A model generated the notes under the pieces. That model searched no databases and was not told the DNA's origin. It was given only the letters and a program-made list of their open reading frames with translations. This document shows positions 4,453 to 64,000 of a stretch of 64,000 nt of DNA, in pieces. The DNA is from Gracilariopsis chorda. Lineage: Eukaryota; Rhodophyta; Florideophyceae; Gracilariales; Gracilariaceae. The stretch spans positions 153,401 through 217,400 of the forward strand of contig NBIV01000123.1 in assembly GCA_003194525.1 (NCBI GenBank), in the 5' to 3' direction. The position numbers were made by a program, and so were the translations under genes. The number at the start of each line of letters is the position of its first letter. The first letter of the stretch is position 1.

Positions 4453-4463
4453 TCCCTGATCGC

Positions 4464-44972: not shown

Positions 44973-45839
44973 GGTGCGACAATAGTCGAAGACCGGTTCA
45001 AAAGTGCAGAGTGCACACGGTGCCTTGCAGGAATAATGCTTGTCAAAAAGGTAAGAACCATTAGCTTGGTTCTCATGAACAGCCGCCCCCATTTCCCATT
45101 TGTGCTGAACTCGATTCAGTAAAGCATCGCGCTCCGTCTAGTTCACCGCAATAAACACCGTCCCTGCTCGTGGAAATGCATGTCACTCTGCATCTCTTCC
45201 AGACCAACGCAGATCTTCTCCACTGAACCGTCATGACCGCTAGGAAGGCTAGCCCCATCCCATGTGGGTTCAGTTACACAGGACCGAGGCATGTCTCGAA
45301 GGAGTTCTTCAGGCTCTTGCCGAACTACGTCCCAAAGGTACAAGGGTTAGACGACTGCTACCCTTCGCCTAACCGCTAGTAGCCCCTACGGTAGCCTCTT
45401 GACCTGTGTCTAAACGGTAGACGAACGTATGCCTACCCCGCCAATTGCAGTTTTTTCGAAGCTAAAACTTGGGCCAAACCATGAAATGTCAAGTGTCACG
45501 TGATTGCCGCGCCAAACAAGAACGCCCCGCCTGCAAGTTGGCTGGATGGAAGGGGATGAAGATGGCACTTTTTCAGTTCCATGAGCGATTGTGTTCACAT
45601 CGTTTGCGATCTTGAGGAGGCGCTCACATATCCATAGCCTCGTACTTGAGAACGGTATTAAACTTCAAACGGTTCTTTCTCATGTCACTCTCGGTCGCCC
45701 TCGGCTAACGTAAGAGGTTCACAAAACCTTGTCGTCAGTATTGCGTTTCGTGACATCGATAATCTTTGGCGCGAGCGCGATCATTCATTTTCTTCACACA
45801 GGCTCGTTGCGTTCTCTTTGAAACCAGTCGTACTTTTCA

Positions 45840-46376
45840 ATGATGGCCGAGAGGAGCTCAATAATCATCCGAGCATCCTCCGCATTTAGCGGTTTTCTAA
45901 ATCGATCCACACTAGCATATGGTGCGCACCCAGCCGTGCTTGTAACACTTGCGGCGGTAGCATCTTCAACGGCCGCTGCAGAAGAGTCCAACCCTGCAGA
46001 TACCGACCACGCTCAAGATCGGGAACGGACAGAACCCAAGAGCCTCGAGGATACCGTCGAGAAAAAACCAATCGTCCAATCGATTGGCGAACAAGTTTCC
46101 TTCGGAGCCGTGCTTGGTTTTGCGACAGGGTACTCAATACGAAAGATTGGAAAGCTCATATTACTGGTGGTTGGTACTGAGGTTGTCGTATTGCAATATA
46201 TGGCATACCGGCAATGGCTTGTGATGGATTGGCGACGTATCGGACGCGATCTCTCCCCAAAATTCAATCGTTCCATGTGGGACGGCCTGCTGAATGTTTT
46301 GCTGTACAAGATGCCGTTCAGCGCTGCGTTCAGCGGGGGACTGGCAGCTGGGCTTCGCCTGTCCTACCAAAAGTGA
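45840..46376 (+). CDS. FUN14-domain protein (FUNDC family), organelle membrane
   Basis: FUN14 proteins sit in the outer mitochondrial membrane or, in some lineages, in plastids. Animal FUNDC1 is a mitophagy receptor. The ATG at 45840 (a second follows at once) gives 178 residues. The N-terminal ~45 residues are Ser/Ala/Arg-rich and could be a targeting segment. An acidic, charged linker (about 48-75) follows. The conserved domain begins at GEQVSFGAVLGFATGYSIRK and continues with KLILLVVGTEVVVLQYMAY and the C-terminal SGGLAAGLRLSY, giving two to three membrane helices with the Gly-rich pattern of the family. No LIR motif of the animal YxxL type is evident near the N-terminus. The mitophagy role is therefore not established here. 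Confidence 0.85.
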   Translation: MMAERSSIIIRASSAFSGFLNRSTLAYGAHPAVLVTLAAVASSTAAAEESNPADTDHAQDRERTEPKSLEDTVEKKPIVQSIGEQVSFGAVLGFATGYSIRKIGKLILLVVGTEVVVLQYMAYRQWLVMDWRRIGRDLSPKFNRSMWDGLLNVLLYKMPFSAAFSGGLAAGLRLSYQK

Positions 46377-48188
46377 ATTGGATTGGGAATGTTTTCTACA
46401 TTGCAGAACTGTTCTAGTGCCATCATTTTGTTTGGGTCGAAGGCAAGGCGTTAGTGTGCCAAAGGCTAAAACTCATAGGCTCCCCTTGGCTTCCTAGGTA
46501 TGCGGATGAGATCTGTTTGCTAGGTGGCTGCACCTGGATTCAGTGACATTGATGCCTCCGTCACACTGAATGTCAGACAATCCGAACCCGTGAAAGAGCG
46601 GTGATAATCTTGACTTCTTCAGTATGTGGATGAAATGTGCATTGCCATGTTCTCTAACCCAACTTCACACTGAGTTCTACTTAGATGAGCAAATAATATT
46701 ATTTCATCCGGATCTTGGGCCTCTGCCTCATCGGAAATGAATACTTCAGTGACCGCTGAAGGCAATCTGAAGCGACTTCGGCCGAACAGTGCTTCAAACT
46801 CAACGCACACAACCCGTGCTGTACGTAAGTCGACGCTTCAATTGCATGGCGTGACCTAAGCGTACTCTTGCCCTTGCGCTTTGGGATTCGGAGCTTGCAG
46901 CTGCTAAGGAAGGCCTCTCTTCTCAAGATACGTCGTACATCTTCTGCAAATACCTTCTGTCTTAAATTCTCGTTTCATGAAAGGATACCGATGATGGCAA
47001 AAGCGTTTAGCAAGGATAAGTATCCGCTATAGCAGACAGTAGGCTACTAAAGGGGTAGTGAATCAGCAACACTCTTTCGGCCAAGGGATAATCTACACGG
47101 CGCAGCCGGCGTAGGACGTTGACTGAAAAGGAACAGCTCAGCACAAGCTCTCCAGAAAACTGACCCAGCTCAATGACCCGCATATGCACATTCTCCTGCG
47201 GCCAATCACAGCCCCCTACTGCCCGAAAAGAACAATCAAACAAAAATGGGCAACTCAAACCAGCAACAACGTACCCCTACGCGCCAAGTGTTCAGCCATC
47301 TTTGATCTTTCATCGCGTTAACTGACGCCACACCAGCCCACGGTCTTTGCCGCCGTCGATTCCCAGATCTCCGGAATGGATTGCCAGATCCCTGGCGTCG
47401 CCTTCATGCACTGATCTTGCTTCTTCTTTCACCCATTTCTCTCACCATTTTCATTCCAGCCAGATATCTACAAACCACCGTTACCTTTTCCTGTTGCCAC
47501 CGCTGTTCATGCATTTTCATTCTATGAATTTTGCATTGCTCTTTACCCAAGCTCCGTTTTTCTCTGCTTTCTGTTTCTGTGAGCTAAGAATTGGTCTTTT
47601 TGGGTCTACTGTCGTCTTAAAATCTTTCTTTCGTAAACTATAAGCTTTTCTTGCACCTGCTATCGTCCTGTGTATATCCTTCTCCTATTACGTGCTTGAT
47701 TGCCCTTTCTGCTCTCATTCAAGTATGGCGGAAAGAAAACTTCTTTTGCTGGATCTATGCAGGGCAAATGCAAGGTCTCTCGCTTACCATTCAATTCTTC
47801 GTCGTCTGTATCTTTCTCACTCACTATTTTCTGCAGCTACGTACAGAAAAGCAGCGCTCTACTCTTTTTCTTACATTGAAGCGACTGCGCGTGTTATTGT
47901 TCTCTTTCAATCCACCATTGGCTCTGTCTTTTTCACCACTGCACATATTGGCGTATGGCAACAGCGCTGCTCTACTCTTCTTTCTACTAAGATGCGTTTT
48001 CACAGCTCATTGATTGTTTCGTACCCCTCATTCCTGTCAAATTTGTTTCACATACGCTAATTGAAAAATGTTGCAATAAGAATTTACTTAGATCCAACTT
48101 CTAACAACTTGTACTCCCTTCAAATATTTTCAGCTATTCTCAAAGCCTTTCGCTGTGCTCTGTCTATATCAGCAGAAGAAGGACTCGA
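46377..48188. other. Unassigned, pyrimidine-rich stretch beside the Mutator-like element
   Basis: No gene is recognised. From about 47,340 to 48,060 the + strand is rich in T and C. Two related phrases occur (GCAGCGCTCTACTCTTTTTCTTAC near 47,852 in shortened form, and CAGCGCTGCTCTACTCTTC near 47,962). This may be the terminal region of the Mutator-like element, whose other end lies outside the window, so its inverted repeat cannot be checked. Confidence 0.45.
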
Positions 48189-50520
48189 TTATGGTTGCGA
48201 TGGTTCCTGAGATGTCTCTTTAAGCTCCGAAGATGAAAAAGACGTGCGTTTCTTCTTCAAGTTGAATCTCTCCGTATATCCTTTAATTCTGCGTTTCATT
48301 CTAACATAATCTTCATTCTGTGGTTTAATCGTCGTGTGCTTTTCAGGTCTAGAACCGGAAAGCACAACGAATTCTCTTTGCAAACCAGTAAGGCTCTCTT
48401 AGTCTGAAACTAAAGAATGCGGTTGTACCAATCCTTGAGATAATACGTCGCCGACTTTTTCCAAGATTTGGTGAACGCTCTCGACCGCATTCATAGTCTT
48501 GCTTGATGCAAATCTGTGACATTGATCAAATAGCGCGATTTCAGCTGCTCTGGTAACGTATTTCTGTACCTCAGCATCTTCCTTTTTGCACAGCATGTCA
48601 TCGAAATCAATATCAGTTTCGTTTGTAGCGGATTTGCACAGCAGCTGTTCTAACTCTTCTTTTTTATACACTCCTGCCTGCTTTCGTACTTCGCTTGTAT
48701 CTTCAACAACAGAGATACCGCGATCAGATGCTTTCCAGTAAGGATCAAAAGGTTAATGAATGGGGATGCATTCATCCAAAACGTGACTTAGATCTGGTAG
48801 TCTTAGAAGTTCTTCTGGGTATACATATGCACATCTCACAATGTTTCTATATGGAAACCCCAATTTTAGTGACATTTGACAGGTGCATGATGCAAAAAGA
48901 CTGCTTTCTGGGCCATTATCCGTTGGATTGACCGTAGTTGCGAACAAGACGACAACTGGTCTTGACTGTTGCGGCGAGATCGTGGATGAAGAGGTCGGAG
49001 GTCTTTGTTGTTGCAGTTCGAATCGCGCGACTGGGAAAATTGAGCTCCCGTGTTCTAAAACCAGTGCGGAACAGGTTTCGATGTCGTACTCGATCACAGA
49101 GGTTGAGATAACCGCAAACTTTTTCGCGCTTTCGATGCTCAGCTCTTTGAACTTAGTGAGAGAGTACGTCTTGTACTCTACTAAAAGATAGTTCAGAACT
49201 TCGTCGGGTAACGGTAGCTGGCAATCTCGTAGAGATCTAGATCTATTACTTAAAGAAGATACTGACTTTGTGCGAGCTTCCTGGAGCCTGTCCTTTCTTT
49301 TCAACGTTGGTCGACGCATCTTGTAGGGGATATGAGAGAACAGAACCTTCTTAGAGAGAATATACGCCTTATACCCGAATTTGGATGCCTTCGTGTAGCC
49401 AGTACCTTGGAAAAGGTACCTCTTAGGCACGGCTAGGTCTTTAAAAACAGCTCACGACCAAGTTCGGCTTCTTCAAGTAAAAGTATCGATACCAAACTGG
49501 AGGTCTTTCCCCGAAATGTTCAAACTACTTCCTTTGGAAAGACTCCCTGCGTCTCATAAAGTCTTGTACGGTTCGTGATCTTCGCATAGCGAACAAGTCC
49601 CTAGACATATCGTCAAACCAAGACTGGCGTTTTATATGGGCGCACCATGATGTCACGTTGCGCATCTGGTTCTGGTTAAGATGCGATTCATCGAAAGACA
49701 GAAATGACCTATCAAGCACCTGCTCCACAGCGTTGATGCATGGAATGCTTTGGTCCATCGTTATCGTTGCTGGTGGCATTGGAATGATAGACCTAAAGCA
49801 GGACAGCACCTCAACGAAGTCAGCTGTCGTTTCTCCTGAAATGAAACCCATAAAGAAAGTTAAGGTGAATCCATCGTTTGCTCTTCCATTCACAGTGAAA
49901 AGTGGATACCCAAATCCACTTGCTATGGCTTTGCAATCAACTGATACACCAGGTACAATTCAAAAACTTTCGTAGTCCTCCAACCACTCTTTCAATGACC
50001 AGCAAGCCAGCTTCAATAGTCCTGCGGAGTCACACTTAAAGAAAAATTTGTTTCTTGGATCCTTTCTATTGAGCTCAATAAGAATCTCGCTCAACTGCAT
50101 GCACTCCAAGTCCTTCGGGTCACTCACTGACCCTGCATATCCTAGTTGCTTTCGTGCAGATATGGGATTGATAGGCGTCTTGTACTTGTCTTCACGGTAC
50201 CTTATTGTGTCATCGAAAGACATGTGTAGCTTTCCCGTGATTTGAATTGCCTCGGCTCTCATTTTCCGAGCTAAATGCTTCACAGCTTCGTGTTGGGTTG
50301 ACGGGTGTGTATGCATCGCCACTGTGAAGTCAGCGACGTAGCTTCGTCCACTAGTACTATCCGAAACCGTCTTGATAGTCATCGAAAACGAGCAACGGTC
50401 TTTCTTGTCGTTGTACTTCTGGCACTTCAAAATTCCTTTTTGTAGAACTCGCTGATCTCCAGCTACTCCGTTACATTTTCTTTCCTTCTCCTTAAAACCA
50501 ACGTAGATAGAAGTTCTCAC
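48189..50520 (-). pseudogene. MULE transposase (DDE, MULE/PF10551-like) remnant
   Basis: The N-terminal part has a FLYWCH/FAR1-like zinc domain (LKCQKYNDKKDRC ... MHTHPSTQHE). A single in-frame TGA at about 49,960 is followed by the transposase core: VSVDCKAIASGFGYPLF (first Asp), GFISGETTADFVEVLSCF and PPATITMDQSIPCINAVEQVL (second Asp). A frame change near 49,430 leads to a C-terminal part with SSLFASCTCQMSLKLGFPY, a degenerate SWIM zinc finger whose last Cys and His are Tyr and Asn. More C-terminal sequence follows to 48,189 across further stops. In live MULEs this enzyme cuts and reinserts the element, giving 8-11 bp target duplications. Confidence 0.85.
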
Positions 50521-50588
50521 AAATATGTAGAATCATATACAGTCGGCAATATGTTGAACCTCCTTCAGAACACCATGGCCAGGGGAAT

Positions 50589-53342
50589 TCAAAAGGAGTG
50601 ATTGAAAAATGCAACAACCGCAGCCTTAAAGCATTCTTCTATATCATCGTTCTGATAGTAATCACCACTCTGGCTGTTGTCGTCATCCTGTTTAATATCC
50701 TCCCCGTCAGTTTCCAGAATCTCAATCTGGCCAGTAGCCCTACTATTGTCGTCCAATTCTACTATAGGGACATGAAATAAGTCGAGAGGGAGCTCCTCTT
50801 CGTCGTCAAGAAAGCGTTCTATAAGCTCAATTGGATCTTCACCACCTTCCGAACTTCTTTCTTCACCCAATTTAATACTGCGTGTGAAAAGCGACCCATC
50901 CTCTTCCAAGGGAACCTTATCTGTAGGTACTTCAGTTGCCATTGCTACAATCAACTCCAAGTTCTCCAGTGAAGTTTCCGGATACCATTATTCACGCTAC
51001 TCAAAAAGCCCAGGTGTGTCGTCTGCGGTCGATCCTTTGTCAATCTCAAAAGGCTCCTTCCCATTCGTCAAAACAGCAAAGGGATTTTTGGAGCCAGATA
51101 CGTCCTCTACAACACCTGAATTATGTCCCTGGTCCACTACGTCTCTTACAATGAGAAGATTGTCATCAATCCTTCTCACGTCTCCTACATCATGCCCGAT
51201 AGCATCTTCTCCACATTCTCCAATCCCAAGATTTATATGTACAGAGCCTTTATTGGTATTCTGGAGCGATGTCAATTGCTCAGAGTCGCGATGAAAGCGC
51301 TTCGCATGGGATAAAGGTGGTGGGTTTAATGCAAATTTAAACATCAGACCTTTGTTTGAACCTAGTTCAAGAGATTTCCCATGAGACACTCTTTCCAGTC
51401 GTTCATCATCCCAATGCAAAGGTCTTTCTGGTAATTGACACCCTCTCCTCGGCAGCAAATGTTTTTCCAACATCTTCCAATCCAGTTCAGTCATCCCTGT
51501 TACTCCATCCTTTCTCCAGTTCTTAAAGAGGGAGATAAGAGATCGCCTAATAATCTCAACTCGCTTTTCAATCTTCTTTCTGATGCTCGATAGAGGGTTG
51601 TGGTTGTGATTCAGACAATAAGATACCTCCCATTTCTTTTTATGTCTGATGAGGTTGAAAGAGATGTTCGAAGGACAATTCGAATTCATACAGCGCATCC
51701 TTCCAGTAGCAGCCCTATCGTTTCCCTTAACTCTCCTGCAAACTGTTCGAAAGTAGTGAACACCGTACATCCAACCATTCTTTGTTGCCAGTGACTGTAG
51801 GATTCCTACTAAATCGTCCACATGAGGCACTTCATTTGGCAACTGCAACTGTGGCACAGAACTGTTATCCACATTACTCAAAACTGTGCGAAGTAGGTCT
51901 TGAAGTACGGAAGAAGTTGCATTTTAGCTATCTTCAAAGTATATCTTCCGGGTTACACGCTTCATAGACACCGTGGAGAGACGTCTATTCAGCAGCTCAA
52001 TTTTCTCAAGACGAGCTTCCCTTCTCGAATGTTTCTCCTCTCTCCTTTCTATATATATTTTTTCAGGCGTCTCGGCGTAAACCTCGTCGCTGTCGACTTT
52101 GCCGTTCCCAGTGCCTGACTCACTTCTACGAGATTTCAATGTCCCGAATTCTGTAGAATTGTGCGGCTGTTCTACCATTTCTCAGCCCCCAGAAGTGCTC
52201 CCATTCGTATGTTTCGTACGCTTTGACTTTTGTGCCTTCTCTCCTTTGAATTTGGCGTCTTTATACGCCACTTCGTACCCTGGACTCAAATTTCTGTTTT
52301 GCTGGCTAGCCTGAGTCTGAATTTCTTTCATTCGCGACAAACCGCGAGCTCGAGCCTCAAACATGTGCTCTTGGTTGTGAATTCGGTACTCGCTGACCAT
52401 TGTTTCTGTCACTTTTTCAGCGCCAAAGTACTGACCTGTCATCAAAGTGTGTACCAGCCGGCTCCCTATCGACATCCAACGGTATCGCTCGGAGAGCTCA
52501 GAAATATATCCCTGTGCATAGGTTTTCTCCGGAGCACTTTCTCGATGCGAAGCAACCTCGGTAAAGAACAAGATTACGTAGCATCCACAGCTGTAACTGT
52601 CTGCTTGACGGTAGTAATTCTTGATGTCCAGTACTACATTCTTCCGGGAAACGATAGCCTCACTTTGTTCATGGAGAATGCTGTAGTCAAAGGCTTTCTC
52701 AAAATGCATCAAGACAGGCAGTGGACACTCAAAACGTAGAATATCCCCAAATTACACCGTAGGCTTCTCTATCTTGTTTCCATTAAGATCAATATATCGT
52801 GTTCCTAGTAATAAACCCCAATGTTCATTTCGCAGGTTCAAGGGAACGAGTATCGTGTGAATATCACCCGAATGCCCAGATACATTTACAGAAAACGACT
52901 TTTTCATCATTGACAAGAAAGATTGTTCTTCCTCCTGAGATAAATTATTTTGTCGCTTCGAGAACCCAGACAGCGCAACCCCTGTATCACATGGACAAAA
53001 GCATACACCGCGGTTTGGTTTCATGTCCATAATCGCGCTAGTGATGAGATCGCTGCAAAGATAAGATATCATTTTCGAGCTGTGAGCAAAAGAGACAGGA
53101 TCTATTTCTTTCTGTTCTGCATCTACTATACAGTATAAATGATGTTGAATCAACTTAAACCGAGGTATGGAAGTTGTGATTTGCAGTCCGGTGTGCCTTT
53201 CTACATTTAGATGAAAAGATCTGCAAATCTTGCTTACTCTTGTATCGACATCGCTTGTCATTAATGTGTCAAGCCCCGCTTTGGAATCCAAGTTGGAAGC
53301 TGTATCGGACGCAGAGCTGGAAGTTATAGAATAAGCATTGTG
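50589..53342 (-). pseudogene. MULE-borne Ulp1-type protease with FAR1 DNA-binding domain
   Basis: One reading frame runs through about 2.7 kb with no frameshift but several in-frame stops: TAA at 52752, TGA near 52,180, TAA at 51924, and two close stops near 50,990. The protease part has LRNEHWGLLLG (catalytic His) and QADSYSCGCYVILFF (oxyanion Gln and catalytic Cys), the C48/Ulp1 signature of SUMO-type proteases. Next comes a FAR1/WRKY-GCM1-like domain: GVHYFRTVCRR, RCMNSNCP and WEVSYCLNHNHNP (C-C...H-x-H ligands). The last ~120 residues are highly acidic. The frame opens after a TAA at about 53,343 without an ATG, so the start is missing. Every stop could derive from CAA, CAG or CGA by C to T change. 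Confidence 0.82.
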
Positions 53343-53406: not shown

Positions 53407-54213
53407 TGTGGTGCAATGCCCCAAAGGGGAAAAACACCGAAAGACGTCCGGGATCTTCCTCTCACAAGGTGAACCCAGTTGGGTAGAGCCCTCCCAGAGG
53501 TGTCACGGCGAAGCCGGTTTGTAAGACCAGGGACACCTGTCGCGACTCGCGCAGGGAGGTGAAGGCGAAGAATCGGTATCCGCGTGAGCGGGGCGTGATC
53601 CTCAGTAGAGGTATGTTTCCACGTAAGTGGGGGTGTGTGAGCGGATGCGCACACGAGGGCCGCGGATAGCGGGAGGTGCTACCCTAAAAAGGGGAAAGAG
53701 GAAGGACGAGTGGGTCGCGAGAGCGACGAGTAGATACGGCGATGCCGGTGGACGGGACTCCCTATACAGGGCGAAACACCAATATGATTGGAACAATTAG
53801 TACTCCCAATGATGGGTCTCCTTTAGATGTGCAAGGGGGGTGAACTTCCGTACACTACGGTGCTTCCCTCCAAGGAGGAGTTGAGAACACGCGGAGGCGG
53901 TAAAGCTCAGAACCAATTCCCCAGGTTCGGGTCCCTTGTTGGGGAAGGTTTACTGGTGCGACGGCAGTGCGCCGTCGCACTAAGTACTAGCTTCCCAGAA
54001 ATGGGTGTGAAAATAATAAATAAAATTAACTAAAATACTCCACATTCCGTGGCAACATCCACTACTGTGGCCAACCGCCAATTGACCCAAAACCGTGTCC
54101 CACGTGTCCATACCCACCGTAGTGGGGCGTAGTTCATATACACACTACACAACCGATAATATCGGGAAAGCGTTCAAGTACCCAGAATCCCTCCCTGAGG
54201 GCGTTGCACTTCA
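53407..54213 (-). repeat. 3' LTR (807 bp) of the hairpin-rich element
   Basis: It aligns over its full length with the solo LTR at 14843-15667. Ends are TGTGGTGCAA and TTGCACTTCA (+ strand), a 10-bp imperfect inverted repeat. It is packed with stem-loops. The largest is GTGCGACGGC (53956-53965) with GCCGTCGCAC (53971-53980). Others are CCCTATACAGGG, CCAATATGATTGG, CCACTACTGTGG and CCGATAATATCGG. An AT-rich stretch near 54,008-54,035 reads as a TATA-like region on the coding strand. Confidence 0.95.
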
Positions 54214-54228
54214 TATCCCCCCCCTTAA
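54214..54228 (-). promoter_or_regulatory. Polypurine tract for plus-strand cDNA priming
   Basis: On the coding strand TTAAGGGGGGGGATA ends exactly where the 3' LTR begins (TGAAGTGCAA). A G-rich purine run in this place is the standard primer for second-strand synthesis. It confirms the minus orientation and the LTR boundary. Confidence 0.88.
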
Positions 54229-54270
54229 GACGGGAAAACGACCGCGGGGGCGGAGGATTCCCAGACGAAA

Positions 54271-56058
54271 ATGGGTGATAAAAGCGCGTGCTTTGTCTCC
54301 GGTTCTCCGGTAAATCCCTCTGCACCAGAGTCATCAAGCACACAAACGACAACAACAGCCACCCTCCAAAAGGGACAAATGAACGACGACAACCATATCA
54401 ACAGCCACAGCCAACCGCCGAGACTTCTCGGGCGGTACACCACCGGTTTCCGGTCAGTTCCCCTGCCTCAGGGCGATCGAAATCCGGTACAACCGGGGAA
54501 TATGGCTGCTGCAGCCGACCATCCCTTCGCACTACCACCTTCGGTGGTGTCCTCCGGAACCACTCCGGAGTCCAACTGGCCAACCTACAACACCCTGGTG
54601 GGGCTCAACCCGATGAATCGGAATCACGCGTCGCGCCTGCGCCTTGCCCCGTGGTTTCACCCGGTCGCTGTCCTCAATGAGGGATTGGTCACCGATTATG
54701 CGGATGGTTCAGACACCCTTCCGGGGGATCTGCCCAGAGCAGTCACCACATCGTGGGATTGGCGTCACCGGATTGCGATTCCGCGTCACCACCTCCGAAG
54801 AAACTCGGGCGAGACCGTCGCTGCGGCGCAGACCGCGTTGACGCGGATGGCGTACCAACGGCAGAGCCGGGCTCCATTCGATGTACCGGTCCCACCGGAG
54901 TTTGACTTCGACGTTAGCTACTTCCGCACTCGCGGGGAGATTGGGTACGGCGAGAACCTGTTCCGCCTCGAGACCCTCGCTTGGAGGAATTTCCCCGCAG
55001 CGCGGCAAGAGGCCCTTTGCTGGGAGCGACCGATTATTCGGGCGGAGTTCAGGTACCTTCCCCGGCAATACCGGTCCAACTTTCTCCAAAACTTCATCCG
55101 CTACGAGCGGCGTTGGCGATCCCGATTCGGGTACTTTATCCCGTACCAGAACGTGGAGATAGAGCGGATTGCGCCGCCTCACCGACTAGGTTGGTATGTA
55201 GCACTCCCCGAGTGGTGGCGCTTCCATGAAGCCTGCCGGGGGTGCTACATAGAACTCCCGCCGGTACTTACGTACCTCGGTTCGCTGCTCATGCAGGATC
55301 CCCGGTCGGGGTTGTGGTCCGTAGTGGTTACGGAGTGGGCGGCCCGCAGTGCGGCTTATATCCTCAACGAGGCGTACGACCAGTATCGTCTCTGGTTCCT
55401 TCAACCGCGTGTGCGGGCAGCGATCCGAAACCTGGATCTTCGCATCCCCCTTGGGGGCCAGGCCAACAATGAAGAGGTCCTCCAATTACTTGGGTACATC
55501 GACAGCGTTAGCTGGAGTGAGGTCCCGCTGGAGCAAAGCGGTCGTCTGGATGGCGGCAGCGGTAACACCGGTGGTCCGGGACTCGGTAGAAACACCGCCC
55601 TTGCGGGGGACTTTATCTACTTCGACCCCTGGGAGTTCCGGGAAATTTCCTCCGAGGAGGCGCGAGAGCTTCGCGATACGCCCCGGCATGTGCCGGAAGA
55701 CCACCCGGTGGGGTACGTCGATTCTGACGACTACTACCGCGCATACGGCGGGGATGACCCAATGGTCGATAACGAACCGGAAGAACCCGGGGAGATGGAC
55801 GTAGAGGAAACCGGCGCTAGCGCGGAAGCTTTTCCAGAGGGGGTATCTCCGGCCGAGCCGGCTGCTGACCCTTCAACGGCAAGTGCCGGACCTTCTATCC
55901 CCAGCGGGGTGACGGCGAATGAAAACGAAATCATCGCACGTTTCCTCCGGGGTGCCGGTCTTAGCGCTGCCGAGGTATCGGGGGATGTCACCACCATGGC
56001 GGACGCGTTGGCCTACCGCCTTGCTGGGGGTTACGCCCCGGACGATGGGGGTGAGTGA
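54271..56058 (+). CDS. Antisense gene inside the retrotransposon, unknown protein (595 aa)
   Basis: I do not recognise the protein. It lies between the polypurine tract and the pol stop and is read opposite to gag-pol. The ATG at 54271 opens 595 codons without interruption, and 192 bp separate its stop from the pol stop. The first ~90 residues are Ser/Thr/Pro/Gln-rich and probably disordered. Residues ~100-400 look folded and are rich in Trp, Tyr and Arg (NFIRYERRWRSRFGYFIPYQ, LGWYVALPEWWRFHEACRGC). The last ~130 are acidic (DVEETGASAEAF). No membrane segment, zinc finger or nuclease motif is visible. An AATAAA at 56146 could end the transcript. The DNA has the same hairpins as gag-pol. Some plant Ty3 elements carry antisense genes in this position, but I see no resemblance. 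Confidence 0.7.
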   Translation: MGDKSACFVSGSPVNPSAPESSSTQTTTTATLQKGQMNDDNHINSHSQPPRLLGRYTTGFRSVPLPQGDRNPVQPGNMAAAADHPFALPPSVVSSGTTPESNWPTYNTLVGLNPMNRNHASRLRLAPWFHPVAVLNEGLVTDYADGSDTLPGDLPRAVTTSWDWRHRIAIPRHHLRRNSGETVAAAQTALTRMAYQRQSRAPFDVPVPPEFDFDVSYFRTRGEIGYGENLFRLETLAWRNFPAARQEALCWERPIIRAEFRYLPRQYRSNFLQNFIRYERRWRSRFGYFIPYQNVEIERIAPPHRLGWYVALPEWWRFHEACRGCYIELPPVLTYLGSLLMQDPRSGLWSVVVTEWAARSAAYILNEAYDQYRLWFLQPRVRAAIRNLDLRIPLGGQANNEEVLQLLGYIDSVSWSEVPLEQSGRLDGGSGNTGGPGLGRNTALAGDFIYFDPWEFREISSEEARELRDTPRHVPEDHPVGYVDSDDYYRAYGGDDPMVDNEPEEPGEMDVEETGASAEAFPEGVSPAEPAADPSTASAGPSIPSGVTANENEIIARFLRGAGLSAAEVSGDVTTMADALAYRLAGGYAPDDGGE

Positions 56059-56145
56059 AACCTCTAGTCCAGTTTCCTGGTTCTTCTTTCCCTGGCTATG
56101 CCAGTTAGTGTAGTGTAGTATTGTGGGGAGCTAGCTGCTCCCTTG

Positions 56146-56151
56146 AATAAA
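56146..56151 (+). terminator. AATAAA polyadenylation-type signal after the antisense gene
   Basis: AATAAA lies 88 bp after the stop of the antisense gene and before the pol stop on the other strand. It fits a transcript made in the antisense direction, but a single hexamer is weak evidence. Confidence 0.4.
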
Positions 56152-56249
56152 CTTTCCCGTTTAGAACGGTGCTTCTCGGTTGAGTTCCCCGTCTTCGACG
56201 GACCTTGTCTTGTTATCCTTTCCTTTCGCTCTCCGCTCGCGCGGCAACG

Positions 56250-59200
56250 TTACCCAACTTGGGCATTTACCAGCGTGGCTGGAGCTGCAGTTCCCGTTTG
56301 ACGGTGGTATCGCACGACCTGCGACCGTGGGAGGTGTTCCATTGGCTCCCACGTATCCCCACTGGGGTCGTACCCGTACCAGCGGACGCGGTATTGTAGA
56401 ATACCATCCTGGTCCCAGGTGTGTTCGACAAGTCGGTCTACTACAAACTCTCGTTCGTAGACCTGCCGGCCGTGCCAGGTGGTGGTTGTAATCCCTGGCG
56501 AGGGTTGCCCGCGGTGCGGTATAATGTCCCTTAGCAAGGTGTTCGGCGATAAATCCGACGTTGCCGTGCGCTGTCCTAGTGGCCGCTGCTCATGCGGGAA
56601 AATATCCCTCAAGAGGGTGTGTGGTGCCACGGTTTTCACCGGCAAGTCGTTCCCCAGAGGGGTGTCGTTGTTCCCGTCTTCACGGTAGGCCGGGCGAACC
56701 GCCAGTCGGCGGGGGACTTGGGTTCCGCCTTCGCGGTTGAGCGCACGAACCGCGAGTTTGCGGGAAGATGACCGCTCCTGCGGGATCGGCATTTCCACAA
56801 TCCCCTGGGGGGTCCCGTGCGACACGGTGATTGGGTGGCAAACCGCCTCCCTGCCAGGCGCACGAGCGCTCTGCACCATACGTTCCGGCGATGCCGTGGT
56901 GTCCCCGGCTACTGACGGGTTGCCTGGGGCTAACTCCGGTACACCGGTATTTTGGTCAAAATTCCCCTCTGGGGGGTTCCGGGCAGGTGCCGATGACACC
57001 CTTTTCAGGGGAATTGCCGCTGAGCGCAGTGCACCATCTCCGTGAGGAGGAGCAGCGTCCGGTACGACCTGTTTCGAGCGTGCGATGGCGCGCGTTATTC
57101 CCGAGTTCCTTGGTTCTTCGCCGCAGCGATGCGGGGGTTGGCGCAAATTATTCCCCGTAGCGGGGGCTTTGATTCCGTCAACGACGGGAGGCGTTTCCGG
57201 TGCTTGCGAGCCAGGGCTTAAAGCTTCGACTGCAGCTTGGCCGCCTTTTTCCCCAAGAGGGGTGTGGGTATTCCCCTGTGAGGCCGGCGTATCTGGGCGC
57301 CCCTTCCCCGCAGGGCGCGGGTCTGATCGACCTGATTGAACCGCTTCCGCGGGGACTTCCGCCAACGGCGGCTTCGAGGCATCGGGCGATTGCCTTTCCG
57401 CTGCTGCGGTATTGGAGTGAGGCTTCTCGTTTTCCCGTGACAAACGGTGTATTTGCCGCCTTTGCGGGGCCTGCGCGTCTGGTTCCTGTTGCACAGCACT
57501 GCCCGGGAACGGGGGATTAGTGTCGCGTGACACACTCCGTGCTCCATGGTCAGTGTTCCGTATGTTACGGTGTGTTTCCCGTTGCGACGGTGATATCGTT
57601 CCTCGAAAACGAGTGTTCTCCTCCCCCTCCTTAGACGGAGCGGCGGGATAAGGGATAACATTCCCCGCCTGGCGGGTATAGATGCGCGCCAGTGGGGCAG
57701 ACGTGGTAGGGGCGGGCGCTGAGGGGCCCGAACTACCCGGCTGAGCCGGTGAGTCCGACAGAGTCGGTAGGTCTGAGAGTCCCCGGCTGGGGTGTGGTAG
57801 TACCGTAGGTCTAGTACTCCCGGATTGTTCCGGTGTAGCGGAGTCCGTAGAAACGGGGTTGCCTGGATCCAGGACTACCTCTGACGAGGGAGGAGGGGCG
57901 AGGACAACACGATCACGGGAAATCCGTTCGTGCGTGTCCCCCATCTCTACTACGACAGTGTCGGTGTTAACAGAGATCACCTTGAAGGGTCCATCCGCCA
58001 CAGGCGAGAGTTTGTGACGCTTCTCCCGTTCCGGGTTGTAGTATTCCTTCCTGATGAAGATGTAGTTATTTGCCCGAATCGGGGATGGTTTTCCTCGCAC
58101 GCGAGCGTCAAAATCCCGCTTGTAAGCGGCTTGGGCCCGTGCCATAGACTTCCGCGCAGCGGGGACCAGCTTGGAAAGCCATCGCTTCCATTGCTGCCGG
58201 TAGATACCCACAGATGGGAAATTGTCCAAGGTAGCTTGGGGTTCCAGCGCCACAGGCGGGGGTGTTCTAGATAGAACCAACTCGAATGGCGAAACTCCGG
58301 TAGTCCGGTGTACCTGCGTATTGTACGCGTAGGTTACCGCATCAGCGTAGAGATCCCAATTCATTGGGTGGTCAGCGACGTAGGAACGTAACGCCGCGAG
58401 TAACGTCCGGTTAAACCGTTCAACTTGCCCATTACACTGGGGGTGGTAGGTAGTCGTAAACAAGTTCTTGACATCCAGGATGCGACAAACATCCTGGAAG
58501 AACTTGCTCAAGAACTGCTTCCCGTTGTCGGAGAGCACCTCCACAGGGGGACCGTAGACAAAAATCCAGTGCGTCACCAGAGCCTGGGCCACCGTGAGAG
58601 CGGTTATCCTCCGAAGAGGGACAGTCCGTACCAGCTTAGAAAAGCGGTCGGTAATGACAAGTAGAAACTTGTTTCCACGTTTCGTGGTGAGTAATGGTCC
58701 GAGAATATCGATCGCGATAAACTCCAGCGGCGCCCTTGCGGGGAATAGTTTCATCTTCTTCGCATTTTTGCGGAGTTTGACGCGATTCTTCGCGCATTCG
58801 CTACAAAACCGCACAGTTGCGTAGCAATCCACAGCCATTGCGGGCCAATAGAAATCCCTTCGCAGGGTTAGGTAGAGTTTCCTCCCACCTGGGTGACCTC
58901 CAATGGGGGCGTAGTGTGATAGATGTAACACCCGCGATTGCAGGGAATGTGGTACCACAATCTGTGGGCGGGCTTCGACCTTTCTTACGAGGTAGCCTTT
59001 GTCGTTTACCCCGAAAGGGAGATCTTCACCACCGTTGATACGGGCACGAATTCTCGTACAGAATGGGTCGCCGAATTGTTCTCGGATCATTTCTTCCGGT
59101 GATACCGGTACAAAGTTTCCCGGTAACGGGTTCTCAGATTTATCTCGCGATGCGAGTAGTTCGTCAAAATCAGCATCCTCGTCCCAGGTTTCTGGCCTAG

Positions 59201-61811
59201 CCTCGACGGCATATTCCGGATCATCCGGGTCTATAGCCATGAAGCATGGGACTTCATCATCCTCTGTTGGGAGTGCTTCCCCACTTGTGGGTAACCGCGA
59301 TAAAGCGTCGGCCTGGGTGTTCTGGGCACCCTTTTTATAAATGACTTGAAAGTCATATTCCGCGAGGCGGAGTCTCCAGCGCATGAGGCGTCCCGACGGG
59401 TCGGAGATATTCATCAACCACCTCAATGAGGAATGATCCGTGTACACGGTGAAGTGAATTCCCATAAGGTAGGGGCGCAGAGTGGTCATCGCCCATACGA
59501 CGGCGAGGCACTCTTTCTCCGATACGGAGTAGTTCCGCTCATGAACATTGAGCGAACGTGACCAATAACCAATTGGATGTCGTTCCCCCTCGGGGGTGGT
59601 TTGAAAAAGAGCACACCCGACTTGGTAGTCGCTCGAGTCCGTATCTACGGAGTATGGCAACCCAAGTTTTGGGAGATGTAGGATTGGTGCTGATGTGACA
59701 GCCTCCTTTAAGGAGTTAAAAGCTTCCGATTGCTCGGGCGTAAATGTTCCCAGTTTTGGGGGGTTCCCCTTTCGCAACAACGCGTTCAGGGGCGCTGCAG
59801 TATCCGAAAAGTTCGGGATAAACCGTCCATAGACGTTGACCAGCCCCAGAAAGGAGCGCAGTTCCGTTTGAGTACGGGGTTCTTTCGCCTCAACGAGGGA
59901 TTTGACTCGAGCTTTCTCGATCGCTAACCGTCCAGGACGGATAATGTGACCCAGATACTTCACAGTATCTGTGAAAAACTCGCATTTCCTCAACTTGAGG
60001 GTAATTCCCGCATCGCGGAGTACGGTCAGCACGTCTCGGACGTGAGTGAGATGGTCGTCCAACGAGTTGGAGAAGATGATAATATCATCAAGGTAGACCA
60101 GACAACTCCGCCACTTAAAGCGGTTGAGTAGAATATCTACTGCACGCTGAAAGGTGGCGGGGGCGTTGGTTAACCCAAATGGCATCCGCTTGAAGCGGTA
60201 CGTTCCTGCATGGCAGGTGAATGCGGTTTTGTCGCGATCCTCCTGTCTGACAGGTACTTGCCAATATCCCCAATTGGCATCAAGGGCCGTGAACACGGTG
60301 GCGTCTCCAAGGGAGTCAATGCACTTGTCCATACGAGGGATGGGGTACGTGTCCCTAACAGTCACGGCATTGAGCCGGCGGTAGTCGACACAGAACCTCC
60401 AGGTTCCGTCGGCCTTTAAAGCCAGTACAACTGGGGATGCCCAGGGCGATTGAGCGGGCTCAATCACACCTGCGCGGAGCATCTTGTCCACCTGGGACTG
60501 CTCCTCTTCCCGAGCTTTCGGACCTGCCCTGTAAGGGGGTTGTGCAACCGGTCGCGCACCGGGGATTAAATCGATCCGGTGTTCCGTTGCATCAATCTCG
60601 CCAAGCGAGCCATCCCACATTGTGGTGAATTCCCGTAACATAGTACGGAGTTTGTCGCGGTGCGACTCTGGCACGTGGCTGAAGTCCAGCGCTTCAAGTG
60701 CTTTTTCCGGATCAATCCGGTCATTGCTCGATGGAGCATTGTCCTGTGGAACAGGTGTGGTTCGCAATTCCGAGTTACTCGGTATGTTCAACGCTGAAGT
60801 AGCGGTTTCCTCCCCCTCCTTAGACTTGACGTCTTCGGACGGCGGGGCGAACTCTTCAGAAGAGGTGGTAACTCCGAGTACATCGGCGGCTGTCATCTTC
60901 GTTGGCAGCATTCCCATAGGATGGGGGGTTACACTCCCAATTACTTGGTGTTTGACCAGATATTGGGGGTGTTTGCCAAGGTTGGCAACCAATATCTGGA
61001 AAGGAACATCCGGGGAAATGGAGACAATTCCATTAGCCAGCGCCAGCTGGGATTTCTCGTACAACGAGGCGAGGGGTTGTATAACCCGAAGACCGTGTTG
61101 ACGGGAATTTACCTGTACCCAGACTTGGGACTCAGCCGGTATAGAAACCGAGGCAGCGACGCGGAGCTTGGTGGACTCGCGGGACGCGGGCGGTGGTTCC
61201 TGCGCAGCAGGGAGCGGAACTTGTTTCCGAGAGGACCGCTTTAGCGGGCGGCGAACAATCGGAACCGACGATCCGTCGTCAAGTTCTACACGCCTGAGGC
61301 GGGGCCTGATTGCGTCGACAAATCTGTCGCAGTAATCACATCCCAGTATGACTGGTGCTGCCAATGAACGGCAAACGATGAAGTCCAACTTCACCACAGA
61401 GGTACCAAGTCTCACGACGAGGTCCACTGTGCCCACCGTTTGTAACGGATTGTTGTTCGCATCCGAAATGTCGGGGACCGCGTCAGAGCGGATACGCGAC
61501 CGCACAAGCGGGGGTAACAATGATTCCATGACAAAGTTGGGGCCTGCACCTGTATCCAGGACGGTGAGAAACCTCACCATAAACTGGGGGTCAAGGCCAA
61601 GGTCGGCATAGACCTTATAATTGCGCTTGGCCAAGACCAAGACTCTACCGGGAATCCGGGGATTTTTACTCCGTATCCACGGGCGACGCAACACACCGAG
61701 GTGCGCAGAGTCCGCGTCAGCGGTGTCTTTCCTCGAGAGGACTTTCACCGGGGAGCGAGGCGAGGACGCCTCGGGCGCCAACAGCCTCGTGTTTGAGGAC
61801 GCCTCTCCCAA
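56250..61811 (-). CDS. Ty3/gypsy Pol polyprotein (PR-RT-RH-IN-proline-rich linker-chromodomain)
   Basis: It is a 1853-codon uninterrupted frame. There is no ATG at its start: the frame begins LGEASS (TTG) and is open further upstream into the end of gag, so it is probably made by a -1 frameshift. Protease: VLDTGAG (D86). RT: QSPWASPVVL, MPFGLTNAPATF and VYLDDIII (YLDD 573-576). RNase H: SVDTDSSDYQVG. Integrase: H-H-C-C zinc finger (HLSHYAPIGGH ... FCSECAKN) near 960-1010, then catalytic D1035, D1095 and E1131 (D-x35-E). A proline/serine-rich linker spans ~1330-1780. A chromodomain follows at ~1786-1835 (FVVDRLVEH, YRVRWYGY, DTWEPMEHL), as in chromoviruses, which target chromatin by it. All catalytic residues are present, so the enzyme set could be active. 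Confidence 0.95.
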   Translation of the reverse strand: MGEASSNTRLLAPEASSPRSPVKVLSRKDTADADSAHLGVLRRPWIRSKNPRIPGRVLVLAKRNYKVYADLGLDPQFMVRFLTVLDTGAGPNFVMESLLPPLVRSRIRSDAVPDISDANNNPLQTVGTVDLVVRLGTSVVKLDFIVCRSLAAPVILGCDYCDRFVDAIRPRLRRVELDDGSSVPIVRRPLKRSSRKQVPLPAAQEPPPASRESTKLRVAASVSIPAESQVWVQVNSRQHGLRVIQPLASLYEKSQLALANGIVSISPDVPFQILVANLGKHPQYLVKHQVIGSVTPHPMGMLPTKMTAADVLGVTTSSEEFAPPSEDVKSKEGEETATSALNIPSNSELRTTPVPQDNAPSSNDRIDPEKALEALDFSHVPESHRDKLRTMLREFTTMWDGSLGEIDATEHRIDLIPGARPVAQPPYRAGPKAREEEQSQVDKMLRAGVIEPAQSPWASPVVLALKADGTWRFCVDYRRLNAVTVRDTYPIPRMDKCIDSLGDATVFTALDANWGYWQVPVRQEDRDKTAFTCHAGTYRFKRMPFGLTNAPATFQRAVDILLNRFKWRSCLVYLDDIIIFSNSLDDHLTHVRDVLTVLRDAGITLKLRKCEFFTDTVKYLGHIIRPGRLAIEKARVKSLVEAKEPRTQTELRSFLGLVNVYGRFIPNFSDTAAPLNALLRKGNPPKLGTFTPEQSEAFNSLKEAVTSAPILHLPKLGLPYSVDTDSSDYQVGCALFQTTPEGERHPIGYWSRSLNVHERNYSVSEKECLAVVWAMTTLRPYLMGIHFTVYTDHSSLRWLMNISDPSGRLMRWRLRLAEYDFQVIYKKGAQNTQADALSRLPTSGEALPTEDDEVPCFMAIDPDDPEYAVEARPETWDEDADFDELLASRDKSENPLPGNFVPVSPEEMIREQFGDPFCTRIRARINGGEDLPFGVNDKGYLVRKVEARPQIVVPHSLQSRVLHLSHYAPIGGHPGGRKLYLTLRRDFYWPAMAVDCYATVRFCSECAKNRVKLRKNAKKMKLFPARAPLEFIAIDILGPLLTTKRGNKFLLVITDRFSKLVRTVPLRRITALTVAQALVTHWIFVYGPPVEVLSDNGKQFLSKFFQDVCRILDVKNLFTTTYHPQCNGQVERFNRTLLAALRSYVADHPMNWDLYADAVTYAYNTQVHRTTGVSPFELVLSRTPPPVALEPQATLDNFPSVGIYRQQWKRWLSKLVPAARKSMARAQAAYKRDFDARVRGKPSPIRANNYIFIRKEYYNPEREKRHKLSPVADGPFKVISVNTDTVVVEMGDTHERISRDRVVLAPPPSSEVVLDPGNPVSTDSATPEQSGSTRPTVLPHPSRGLSDLPTLSDSPAQPGSSGPSAPAPTTSAPLARIYTRQAGNVIPYPAAPSKEGEENTRFRGTISPSQRETHRNIRNTDHGARSVSRDTNPPFPGSAVQQEPDAQAPQRRQIHRLSRENEKPHSNTAAAERQSPDASKPPLAEVPAEAVQSGRSDPRPAGKGRPDTPASQGNTHTPLGEKGGQAAVEALSPGSQAPETPPVVDGIKAPATGNNLRQPPHRCGEEPRNSGITRAIARSKQVVPDAAPPHGDGALRSAAIPLKRVSSAPARNPPEGNFDQNTGVPELAPGNPSVAGDTTASPERMVQSARAPGREAVCHPITVSHGTPQGIVEMPIPQERSSSRKLAVRALNREGGTQVPRRLAVRPAYREDGNNDTPLGNDLPVKTVAPHTLLRDIFPHEQRPLGQRTATSDLSPNTLLRDIIPHRGQPSPGITTTTWHGRQVYEREFVVDRLVEHTWDQDGILQYRVRWYGYDPSGDTWEPMEHLPRSQVVRYHRQTGTAAPATLVNAQVG

Positions 61812-61828
61812 AGGGGAGACTCCCTCAG

Positions 61829-63438
61829 TTAGTTTTCCGCCTTCGGCGGTGGGTTGGTTTCCTCGACAACGAGTGCTTCATCCCGTTGACGGGGGTTTCT
61901 ATCCGCATAAGCGGGGGTTGCAACGGATGGTTGCGTGATCTCCCGAATCGGGGTGTATGAAGCTTGCCGCGCACGCGGGGTCTGTGGTAGGGCGTGAGAA
62001 AAGTCCGTTTTAGCACGGAGGTAGGAAGCCGTCGGGACGGAACGTTTCTCCTCTGGAGTGAGGGCCTCATAATTTGCCACCACCTTGGCCATATCCTTCA
62101 GTGAACAAATACACTGAGGAGAGGTATGGCCATGGGCATAGCACAGGTGGCAAATGAGAGCCAGCACCGCGACACGCGGATTATTATTCCGAGTATCGGA
62201 GAAGCGAACCGCAGGGCGGGTGTCAGTCCATCCAGGCCGTTGATAACGGGATTGACCGTTTGAAAACGGGAGTCGTTGGGGTTGAACCCGACTGTTACCA
62301 CCGTATAGAACGGGATCTTCTGTTCCCGTATCATGGGTCATCTCCGTCGTTGACGGTAACTCACTGGTGGGTATCGACACACCATCTCCCTGCGCTAAAT
62401 GCACGGTATCAAATCCCTGTCCAGGGTTCCCATCCGCGGTGAGCGGGAGAGAGGAAGCTTCGCTTTCCAGCAACAACGCCTTGGCGGATTTAGACCGATT
62501 GTTCGGAGTTCTTGCACGAAGTGCATCCCCTTCCGCTCGAGCGTGTTGGACCAGCTCGAGGTAGGTGATCCTTCGCTTGTCCTCCGATAACGGGTAACTA
62601 AACTCCGGATTGCCGGGTCAAGACCATCAATGAACATGGTACTGCGCTCCCCAGCGGGGTATACGTTACCACATCTGTGGAAAGCCTTGTTAAGGCGCAC
62701 CGAGTAATCGGTCTCGGTCTCTCCAGCACGCTGGCGTGTATCTCGCAAAGCGAGGATAGCCTGCTGAATAGCGGTGTTGGTGGCGTAGGAGCGCAGAAGA
62801 TACTGCACGGCCTCCGGCCAGCAAGTAACTCCTCCCTCGGAGGCGCGAGAAGATCCTCGGACAGAGGTGTATTGGTCCTCGGCCACTCCCCGTAAGAAAT
62901 ACGGTAAAGCCAAATAGGCTTGTCCCTCATTCATACCGAGGATATCGGCCTCCGCTACAAAGCGGGATAGGAAATCCAGTACTAGGACTGGGTCCTCTCC
63001 AGTAAAATACTGCTTGCGGAGCGAGAGCTGCATTCGCTTAATGCATTCTCGCACCTTTCCCGTACCACGGGGCGTACGTCCAAGTGACGAATCTTCAAGC
63101 CGGTAGTACCGGTATGATAAAAGCTTCCGGTAATCCGGGTTTGTCGGTTTCAATTCCCGGAGACGGTGTCTTCTCCCCTTCTGGCGGGTTCGGACCACAC
63201 CTTCAGTGGCCGATGACCGCTTCGAGCGGGAGGAGTAGCCTCGCTTCTCGTCCTCCGAGTCGGAGTCCGAGGAGCTCGAGCTAACCGAATGGTTTCGGGA
63301 TGAGTCCGACGATGTCGAAGAATCGGAGTCCGAATATTTTCGGTGGTGTTTCCGTCGGTGACGGCGTTTCTTCTTCCCAGCAAGCTGGTCTTTGTGCGAT
63401 GCCTCGTTTACCGGATCACCCGGGGATGGTTTGTCCAT
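61829..63438 (-). pseudogene. Gag of the hairpin-rich element, with a frame change near 62.6 kb
   Basis: The frame from ATG 63438 (MDKPSPGDPVNEASHKD) has a Lys/Arg/His run and a Ser/Asp-rich stretch, then the capsid-like core (FTGEDPVLVLDFLSRFV, TDYSVRLNKAFHRCG, MFIDGLDPAIRSLV). After about 62,600 the natural continuation (TYLELVQHARAEGDALRA) is in the -1 frame and runs through a CCHC zinc knuckle C-HL-C-YAHG-H-TSPQ-C to the stop at 61829. The original frame continues with unlikely sequence to 62,395. I take this as a one-base deletion or insertion, since no good slip site lies at the change. A programmed shift is a less likely alternative. This copy may thus depend on other copies for Gag. 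Confidence 0.75.
61832..61838 (-). promoter_or_regulatory. Putative -1 ribosomal frameshift site at the gag-pol junction
   Basis: The last gag codons are GCG GAA AAC TAA, so GGAAAAC is read just before the stop. This resembles known retroviral slip heptamers with a GGA first part or an AAC end. The pol frame is the -1 frame and is open here. Within about 8 bases downstream begin overlapping stems GGGAG/CTCCC and CTCCC/GGGAG, which could act as the pausing structure. The decayed cousin at 1-4.5 kb also has AAAAC at the matching place (about 491-495). Confidence 0.55.
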
Positions 63439-63492
63439 GAGACGAACTGCTCCAGCGTCTCCAGGCGGGCACCAATCCGATCAAATCGGGCT

Positions 63493-64000
63493 TCAACTCC
63501 TTTCGATGAAGGCGGCGGGTTGTCCCAAACTCTCCAACACGGAGTTGACGTCAGACCGTAAAATACGGAGTTCCTCGGCGACCTCCTTTACAGGGGTTGC
63601 CGAAACCACCTCTTGGAGGGATTTTAGTTCCCCTACAAGGGTGTCATGGGCGGTCCACAGAGCGCGGACCTGGGATCCAGGGAAGTCCCCTGGGGGGGTG
63701 TTTATCGCCCGTTCCACGGGGGCTTGAAGCCGCGACAGCGGGAGCAGGCCGGGGTGCCTGGGGCACTGCGGCAACAGCCGGAGTCGATGCTGCATTCCCT
63801 GCGGGGGTGATAACGAGGGCAAAAGGAGGTTCCGGGGTTCCCGGTCGGGGGTATCATTCCGCGATGAAGCGGCGCCAGCACGGCTGGAACTTGTCCGTAT
63901 AGGGATACGGGGTACGAACCGAAACTTCGGAAGTGTCCGCGTTGTCGCGGGAGCGACTACGCGTAACCACTGGCTCCGCGTCGGAGGGATTTCTCGACAT
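63493..64000 (-). pseudogene. Upstream gag segments (N-terminal region) in several frames
   Basis: An ATG at the window edge (64000) opens a short frame (MSRNPSDAEPVVTRSRSRDN) that stops at a TGA near 63,850. A second frame (to 63,493) contains a helical stretch HDTLVGELKSLQEVV ... EELRILRSDVNSVLESL that looks like the coiled coil at the start of many Ty3 Gags. It is in the same frame as the gag at 63438 but separated by stops. Either gag has suffered further indels here, or gag proper starts at 63438 and this is leader. Confidence 0.5.

Follow-up and report, generated by a model that had tools for sequence, protein, structure and literature searches.

An excess of very short perfect hairpins throughout a Ty3/gypsy chromovirus lineage of the red alga Gracilariopsis chorda

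Background

The DNA described here, a stretch of 64,000 nucleotides from the red alga Gracilariopsis chorda that forms the end of contig NBIV01000123.1 (C123; hereafter the window), terminates in a retrotransposon. This element, a Ty3/gypsy chromovirus, is located at positions 53407-64000 in minus orientation, and the contig stops before its 5' long terminal repeat (LTR) is reached. A preliminary description, made from the letters of the window alone, reported the element to be packed with short hairpins. Our present analysis, which covers the whole genome (91.3 Mb in 1081 contigs), describes an excess of very short perfect hairpins, amounting to two to five times chance, in the element and its relatives. 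We propose that selection during propagation has probably shaped the whole sequence of this chromovirus lineage so that it folds into minimal hairpins. An isoleucyl-tRNA synthetase encoded in the window, 83% identical to those of Gracilaria domingensis and Agarophyton chilense, agrees with a host of the Gracilariales.

Results

The element and its relatives in the window

The element is a Ty3/gypsy chromovirus by the order of reverse transcriptase (RT), RNase H and integrase and by the C-terminal chromodomain in pol. All of these are encoded by a single open reading frame (ORF) at 56250-61811 (minus strand), with Pfam matches to RVT_1, RT_RNaseH, Integrase_H2C2, rve and Chromo. The 3' LTR (53407-54213, minus strand) carries TG/CA ends, and its boundaries were set from an LTR relative at 14843-15667 (88%). 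It is adjoined by a polypurine-tract-like run, sense AAGGGGGGGGATA (54214-54226, minus strand), which was read in the sequence and putatively assigned by position. The translation of a further ORF (61829-62476, minus strand) contains, by eye, the pattern CX2CX4HX4C, which we take to be a CCHC zinc-knuckle; this ORF is probably the nucleocapsid end of gag. The ORF at 62395-63438 (minus strand), hairpin-rich and with a basic N terminus, had no match in a Pfam search, and it is therefore called probable gag by its position.

On the opposite strand lies a hairpin-rich antisense ORF of 595 amino acids (54271-56058, plus strand), for which a Pfam search gave no match. Relatives of its product occur in Gracilariopsis chorda itself (50%, hypothetical protein), in Gracilaria domingensis (48%) and as three metagenome-type proteins. 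The ORF is present in at least 74 genomic places at 95-100% identity, and 61 of the matches listed are free of stops. It has the look of an antisense accessory gene that the lineage has conserved. The element as such has at least 40 copies at 98-100% identity when a 1.2-kb DNA query is used and at least 59 at 97-100% with a query of 767 amino acids.

Two relatives of the element are found elsewhere in the window. The first, at 1-4500 (plus strand), is a decayed copy, broken up and without a long frame, called here the cousin; its hairpins number 1.74 times chance. The second is an LTR of another subfamily (Y) of the same lineage (14843-15667, minus strand; hairpin ratio 3.8), located inside a different Ty3 element at 11-17 kb.

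Hairpin counts and controls

Hairpins were counted as perfect stems of at least 4 bp with loops of 2-6 nt, and the counts were compared with those in synonymous shuffles. Pol contains 249 hairpins vs 114.2 in the shuffles (z 14.2), the antisense ORF 83 vs 39.1 (z 7.2), the gag ORF 55 vs 22.5 (z 7.6) and the ORF at 61829-62476 27 vs 12.7 (z 4.0). In the 3' LTR, 4-bp hairpins with loops of 3-4 nt reach 4.6 times chance (26 vs 5.6). Stricter shuffles, keeping protein, codons and the dinucleotides at codon junctions, give the same picture for 4-bp stems in pol (85 vs 26 at loop 3, 98 vs 32 at loop 4, 70 vs 26 at loop 5). With loops of 9 nt and more the counts are near expectation (27/27, 22/23 and 27/25 observed/expected at 15, 20 and 30 nt). 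A lag control found no comparable excess of direct or mirror repeats; the excess is one of reverse-complement arms. For parallel-complement arms in pol, counts at gaps of 3-7 nt exceed expectation to a lesser degree (39 vs 29 and 43 vs 30 are two instances).

The 209 perfect hairpins of pol with stems of at least 4 bp and loops of 3-5 nt cover 43% of its sequence, vs 17% in shuffles, and 332 non-overlapping hairpins fit within the 10.6 kb of the element. In sliding 1-kb windows the ratio rises abruptly at 53 kb, and all 11 windows between 53 and 64 kb stand at 2.7-4.8 times chance. The density is 46.2 hairpins per kb in the element and 20.0 in the window at 18-53.4 kb. A perfect 4-bp hairpin is found in 33% of 21-nt windows of the element and in 11% of those of the host; of sampled 21-nt windows of pol, 74% fold at -1.5 kcal/mol or better, vs 57% in shuffles. 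No match to known RNA families was obtained at gathering scores.

All nine hairpins quoted in the preliminary description are exact at their positions, among them CCGGC TGA GCCGG (57737-57749) and the hairpin made of LRKNAKK codons (58761-58772). The "at least six" hairpins it saw in 57661-57860 are six non-overlapping ones by our count, and its assertion that they run through LTR, antisense gene, pol and gag agrees with the excess found in each of these parts. It had named equal density in synonymous shuffles or in other genomic sequence as the result that would speak against it; the densities are not equal. Synonymous sites, about which it had asked, do serve the stems, the hairpins being built by codon choice.

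Its contrast with the cousin was drawn too sharply. The cousin, said to encode nearly the same protein without hairpins, does have a lower density (26.9 per kb), and its LRKYSKK codons indeed form none, but it is not free of hairpins; being a decayed copy with intermediate excess, it shows that the contrast was overstated. Of the host genes, likewise declared to lack the property, three of five ORFs with Pfam matches have no excess (78 vs 76.6, 21 vs 19.6, 56 vs 63.0), but two have a mild one (80 vs 57.9, z 3.2; 70 vs 54.8, z 2.3). For the Ty3 element at 11-17 kb the statement holds at 11-14.8 kb (20.0 per kb) but not in the inserted LTR (44.8).

Distribution among element families

From 150 scored RT hits in the genome, 30 loci were fetched, 23 belonging to family B and 7 to family C, both with about 71% DNA identity to the element's own family (A) over 0.8-1.4 kb. 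All 30 are hairpin-rich, with ratios of 2.5-2.9 in B and 2.8-2.95 in C; 12 loci of family A (nine distinct copies, that of the window included) stand at 3.4-3.7. None of the eight copia loci measured has an excess (4-bp ratio 0.89-1.10). Eight loci of Tf2-type Ty3 elements range from 0.70 to 1.62, and six of them lack the property. The highest of these ratios is that of the window's own copy, which bears the inserted LTR of the hairpin lineage; another locus, L080, stands at 1.46. The corresponding 5-bp ratios, 0.83-1.73, come from 8-16 hairpins each. The excess is thus present in three diverged families and absent in copia and in most Tf2-like loci measured. No DNA of relatives was confirmed in viral contigs.

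The cousin retains part of the excess despite its broken reading frame (28 hairpins vs 18.3 in its ORF 1043-2020, z 2.7); as it is decayed, hairpin density might serve as a decay clock. Among the copia elements, six RT matches lie in a row on contig C383 (36202-50459) at a spacing of about 2.7 kb, which may be a tandem array or may stem from the assembly.

Hairpin geometry

Geometry was counted in a pool made up of pol, gag and a single copy from each of families B and C. The typical hairpin has an outer span of about 11-15 nt, a stem of 4-6 bp and a loop of about 3-5 nt. Stems of 3 bp show no excess. Those of 4 bp are 2.0-2.4 times enriched with loops of 3-4 nt. For 5-bp stems the factor is 5.6 at loop 3 (61 vs 11) and 3.7 at loop 4, and 6-bp stems are enriched mainly with loops of 1-2 nt. 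In pol, extension of 5-bp stems beyond 5 bp is no commoner than in shuffles. Ordered by RNA energy, enrichment is about 1 above -1 kcal/mol, 1.2 times at -2 to -1, 2.0 at -3 to -2 and 3.3-3.5 from -6 to -4 (92 vs 27.5 at -5 to -4), and it falls to 1.4 below -6 kcal/mol (25 vs 18.4).

The stems are perfect Watson-Crick stems. Stems of 5 bp with one mismatch occur at chance (G.T 66 vs 65.3, A.C 75 vs 68.8, other 260 vs 264.4), and 4-bp stems with one G.T are slightly low (143 vs 169). Stems of 6 bp with one mismatch are 1.3-1.45 times up; these contain enriched 4-bp stems. The commonest loops have no obvious consensus, and tetraloop classes are enriched similarly to their strand mirrors (GNRA 11 vs 3.0, mirror 9 vs 2.9). 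Even spacing, expected if each window of small-RNA size must fold, was rejected as an explanatory feature: the coefficient of variation for stems of at least 4 bp is only marginally low (0.89 vs 0.90-1.11 in the null), and no evenness is seen for stems of at least 5 bp or in families B and C.

Folding energy and comparison with RNA phages

The folding energy difference (MFED) was taken over dinucleotide shuffles at maximal spans of 16 and 350 nt, with the leviviruses MS2 and Qbeta as positive controls. At these two spans it is 55% and 11.8% in the element and 50% and 9.6% on the antisense strand; all 30 fragments of the element show the excess at span 16, and 27 of 30 exceed 3% at 350. A copy of family B (L034) has 32/6.4%, a copy of family C (L017) 45/8.7% with eight of nine fragments above 3% at 350, and the cousin 32/4.1%. 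Two host stretches give -3.0/0.4% and 2.2/3.7%, two copia loci -1.3/-1.6% (L070) and, with large scatter, 22.6/3.9% (L065), and a Tf2-type locus (L077) 1.0/-0.4%. MS2 and Qbeta reach 38/30% and 34/31%.

Like the element, the phages have an excess of perfect short hairpins, and their stable hairpins (below -3 kcal/mol) prefer loops of 3-4 nt. The two differ in scale: the excess of the phages grows with span up to 60 nt, whereas that of the element shrinks. At spans of 16, 60 and 300 nt the folding-energy excess is 7.1, 4.5 and 3.8 kcal/100 nt in pol, 2.7, 10.1 and 8.3 in MS2 replicase and 2.7, 7.1 and 7.1 in Qbeta replicase. Enrichment of stems of 4, 5 and 6 bp is 1.8, 2.6 and 3.6 in the phages and 2.6, 3.25 and 1.8 in the element. 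G.U pairs are 1.4 times enriched in 6-bp stems of the element and 1.7 times in those of the phages. As the phages likewise prefer these loops and have no G.U excess in stems of 4-5 bp, RNA and DNA cannot be told apart by either feature. Two arguments were dropped for this reason, namely that the wobble test proves a process acting on DNA and that the loop size is special to the element.

Conservation of hairpins within and between families

The LTR comparison comprises eight copies of subfamily X and 13 of Y; five of 24 fetched LTR pieces (L093, L096, L100, L102, L103) were excluded as partial or not LTR. One locus of mixed pattern (L055) is in neither group of the coding comparison. The between-family comparison leaves out L026, and its p-values are approximate owing to overlapping stems and shared families.

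Singletons in families A, B and C (444 variants) destroy 103 hairpins and create 30, close to the 114.2 and 32.7 expected by chance. The 96 shared variants account for 18 losses and 13 gains vs 24.6 and 6.9 (p about 0.02 for gains, 0.11 for losses). Fixed differences between X and Y LTRs fall on 1 of 252 stem sites, 19 of 371 sites between hairpins and 8 of 96 loop sites; LTR singletons number 42, 52 and 24 in these classes. The deficit in stems (1/252 vs 27/467 elsewhere) has p=0.00014 per site and p=0.0004 by Fisher test of fixed against singleton variants, and it persists when stems of either subfamily are counted (3/273 vs 25/446, p=0.002). With LTR and coding pieces pooled, 6/1835 stem sites and 51/3777 others are fixed (X labels; p=0.00016 per site, p=0.0016 against singletons; with stems of either subfamily p=0.003 and p=0.014). 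Dense minimal hairpins arise by codon choice and, in the LTR, are kept while the element propagates. The two subfamilies are 8-10% apart in the LTR, about 2% in the pol core and 7% at 56700-58199, which suggests LTR exchange or strong constraint on pol.

Between families most hairpins turn over, so that density is kept rather than place. Nevertheless 45 of 304 stems are intact in place, vs 156 of 2280 chance inverted repeats with loops of 15-74 nt (p=1e-5). The compensatory changes that the preliminary description proposed to look for are found between families (14 stems intact by compensation vs 48 in chance inverted repeats, p=0.014) but not in the single X-Y LTR pair compared. The arms of one hairpin are CTCCG/CGGAG in family A, CTCGG/CCGAG in B and CTCTG/CAGAG in C. 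Synonymous sites are close to random between families, fourfold sites being 31-34% identical overall, 26-32% outside stems and loops and 36-48% in stems; nonsynonymous positions are equally conserved inside stems and elsewhere.

Discussion

Selection during propagation fits these hairpins best. The selected form would be a perfect stem, mostly of 4-5 bp, closed by a loop of mostly 3-4 nt, with about -2 to -6 kcal/mol. Selection would act on single-stranded nucleic acid of the element, most likely on the genomic RNA and on the strand complementary to it while the element replicates; strand symmetry fits both RNA and its cDNA complement. The most likely benefit is that dense self-folding would keep the strand compact and shielded and would hinder its annealing with complementary strands, whether in sense-antisense duplexes or with small RNAs. 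By analogy with the shielding proposed for structured RNA virus genomes, the hairpins would most likely serve to keep the strand folded on itself, so that it is less readily recognised or annealed to. Stem length may be capped because stable hairpins would hamper reverse transcription or translation or would be costly through Dicer. Two full Argonaute-type matches and two Dicer-like genes with paired RNase III domains were found in the host genome, so pressure from RNA silencing is possible. Fragments with Piwi domains also lie on contigs C483, C648, C777 and C944, every ~8 kb and in opposite-strand pairs, many with internal stops, as a repeat that carries pieces of Argonaute.

Several results weigh against selection for folding. 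Coding pieces alone show no significant conservation of stems (5/1583 stem vs 24/3310 other sites; p=0.11 per site, 0.28 against singletons), the direction being the same as in the LTR, and shared variants in A, B and C fall in stems about as often as singletons (21/98 vs 123/450, p=0.26). Tuning of sense-strand RNA is not seen, in that loops have no clear strand preference and stems of 4-5 bp are not enriched in G.U pairs (nor are those of the MS2/Qbeta control). Only five of nine fragments of family B exceed 3% MFED at span 350, and the host stretch 42001-52000 averages 3.7%, with 15 of 28 fragments above 3%. Copia elements, without hairpins in the eight loci measured, are abundant in the genome (at least 150 hits). 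A perfect 4-bp hairpin is present in only 33% of 21-nt windows; with this share, and with 74% of sampled pol windows folding at -1.5 kcal/mol or better, shielding from small RNAs would be only partial.

The preliminary description knew of no described element with this property. The kind of structure is known from RNA viruses as genome-scale ordered RNA structure (GORS), for which the available part of one source describes pervasive stem-loops with shifting positions and a proposed role in shielding viral RNA (PMC7642675). For retrotransposons no report of an element-wide short-hairpin excess was found among the listed papers of the open-licence literature, which is weak evidence. The element resembles GORS, as portrayed in that part of the source, in many short-range stem-loops throughout the coding sequence, in folding energy beyond shuffled controls, in positions poorly conserved between relatives and in less variable paired sites (PMC7642675). 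Its mean MFED lies above the 3% given as the GORS threshold in the part available of another source (PMC3950689), a loose limit that the host stretch 42001-52000 also passes. The structure spreads over the whole element, as the 1-kb windows and the span-16 fragments show, few pairings survive in place between families, and paired sites are less variable in the LTR, though not significantly so in coding sequence alone. GORS differs in being a property of positive-strand RNA virus genomes, whereas the element is an integrated LTR retrotransposon. Its excess lies mostly at spans of up to 16 nt and falls with span, it is strand-symmetric, and its stems are capped at about 5 bp, so that no structure beyond minimal hairpins is evident. 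As an integrated LTR retrotransposon, the element may work like GORS, yet we do not file it as a member. More tentatively, its hairpins may instead obey a strand-neutral, genome-wide rule distinct from GORS, a tiling with marginally stable micro-hairpins of fixed geometry that constrains RNA and cDNA alike and is imposed by a process with access to only ~14 nt of a single strand.

A constraint at the level of DNA, acting on single-stranded cDNA or in the transcription bubble and, for example, protecting or pacing the reverse-transcription intermediate, is conceivable but doubtful. Strand symmetry would suit it, the hairpin span is near the size of a transcription bubble, and the enrichment is matched a little more closely by DNA than by RNA hairpin energies (log-likelihood -3483.7 vs -3488.4). 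This gain is slight, however, and RNA phages have the same loop preference and lack of G.U excess in 4-5-bp stems. We consider it unlikely that the hairpins are dispersed packaging signals, recognised by Gag or nucleocapsid through the shape of 5-bp stems with 3-4-nt loops, many copies raising encapsidation. The tight geometry, the ceiling on stem length, the zinc-knuckle ORF and the preference of MS2/Qbeta hairpins below -3 kcal/mol for the same loops would agree with such signals, but the loops have neither a clear strand asymmetry nor an obvious consensus, the LTR and the antisense gene are filled as well, and 332 non-overlapping hairpins in 10.6 kb are more than packaging would seem to need.

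Of the two causes suggested in the preliminary description, our results support selection for structure and speak against a copying mechanism by which quasi-palindromes are perfected. In the latter, template switching of RT on a fold-back would create or perfect short palindromes with no benefit required. It would account for perfect Watson-Crick stems, strand symmetry, a span limited to about 15 nt, confinement to one reverse-transcribing lineage, turnover of positions and the surplus of hairpins gained by shared variants (13 vs 6.9). It is nonetheless improbable: singletons hit hairpins at random, where copying would have new changes build hairpins or pass from one arm to the other, LTR stems are conserved between X and Y, single-mismatch stems of 5 bp occur at chance level and 4-bp stems with G.T are slightly low, nonsynonymous stem positions are no less conserved than others, and about half of stem mutations should be paired changes, of which the X-Y pair compared has none. 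An artefact of biased codons or dinucleotides, of high G+C or of decay, suggested only by the G+C of the element (0.57, above its surroundings), has practically no probability, being refuted by the synonymous-shuffle and lag controls: the excess survives shuffles keeping protein, codons and junction dinucleotides, vanishes at longer lags and is absent or mild in host ORFs of G+C 0.50-0.55.

If selection for minimal hairpins is the true cause, pervasive structure selection reaches beyond RNA viruses to an algal LTR-retrotransposon lineage, and it is strong enough to hold 43% of pol in perfect short hairpins vs 17% in shuffles. Many near-identical copies, decayed copies and both structured and unstructured element families in one genome would then make the purpose of GORS directly testable, namely which elements need structure, against what and at what length scale. 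Folding is known in the same superfamily from the genomic RNA of yeast Ty3, which has a well-folded core; this core makes up about 20% of the RNA, and the available part of the source describes no element-wide excess of micro-hairpins (PMC11381356). With chromoviruses the element shares the order RT-RNase H-integrase-chromodomain, and what may set it apart from them is its hairpin density and the antisense ORF, which has relatives in other red algae.

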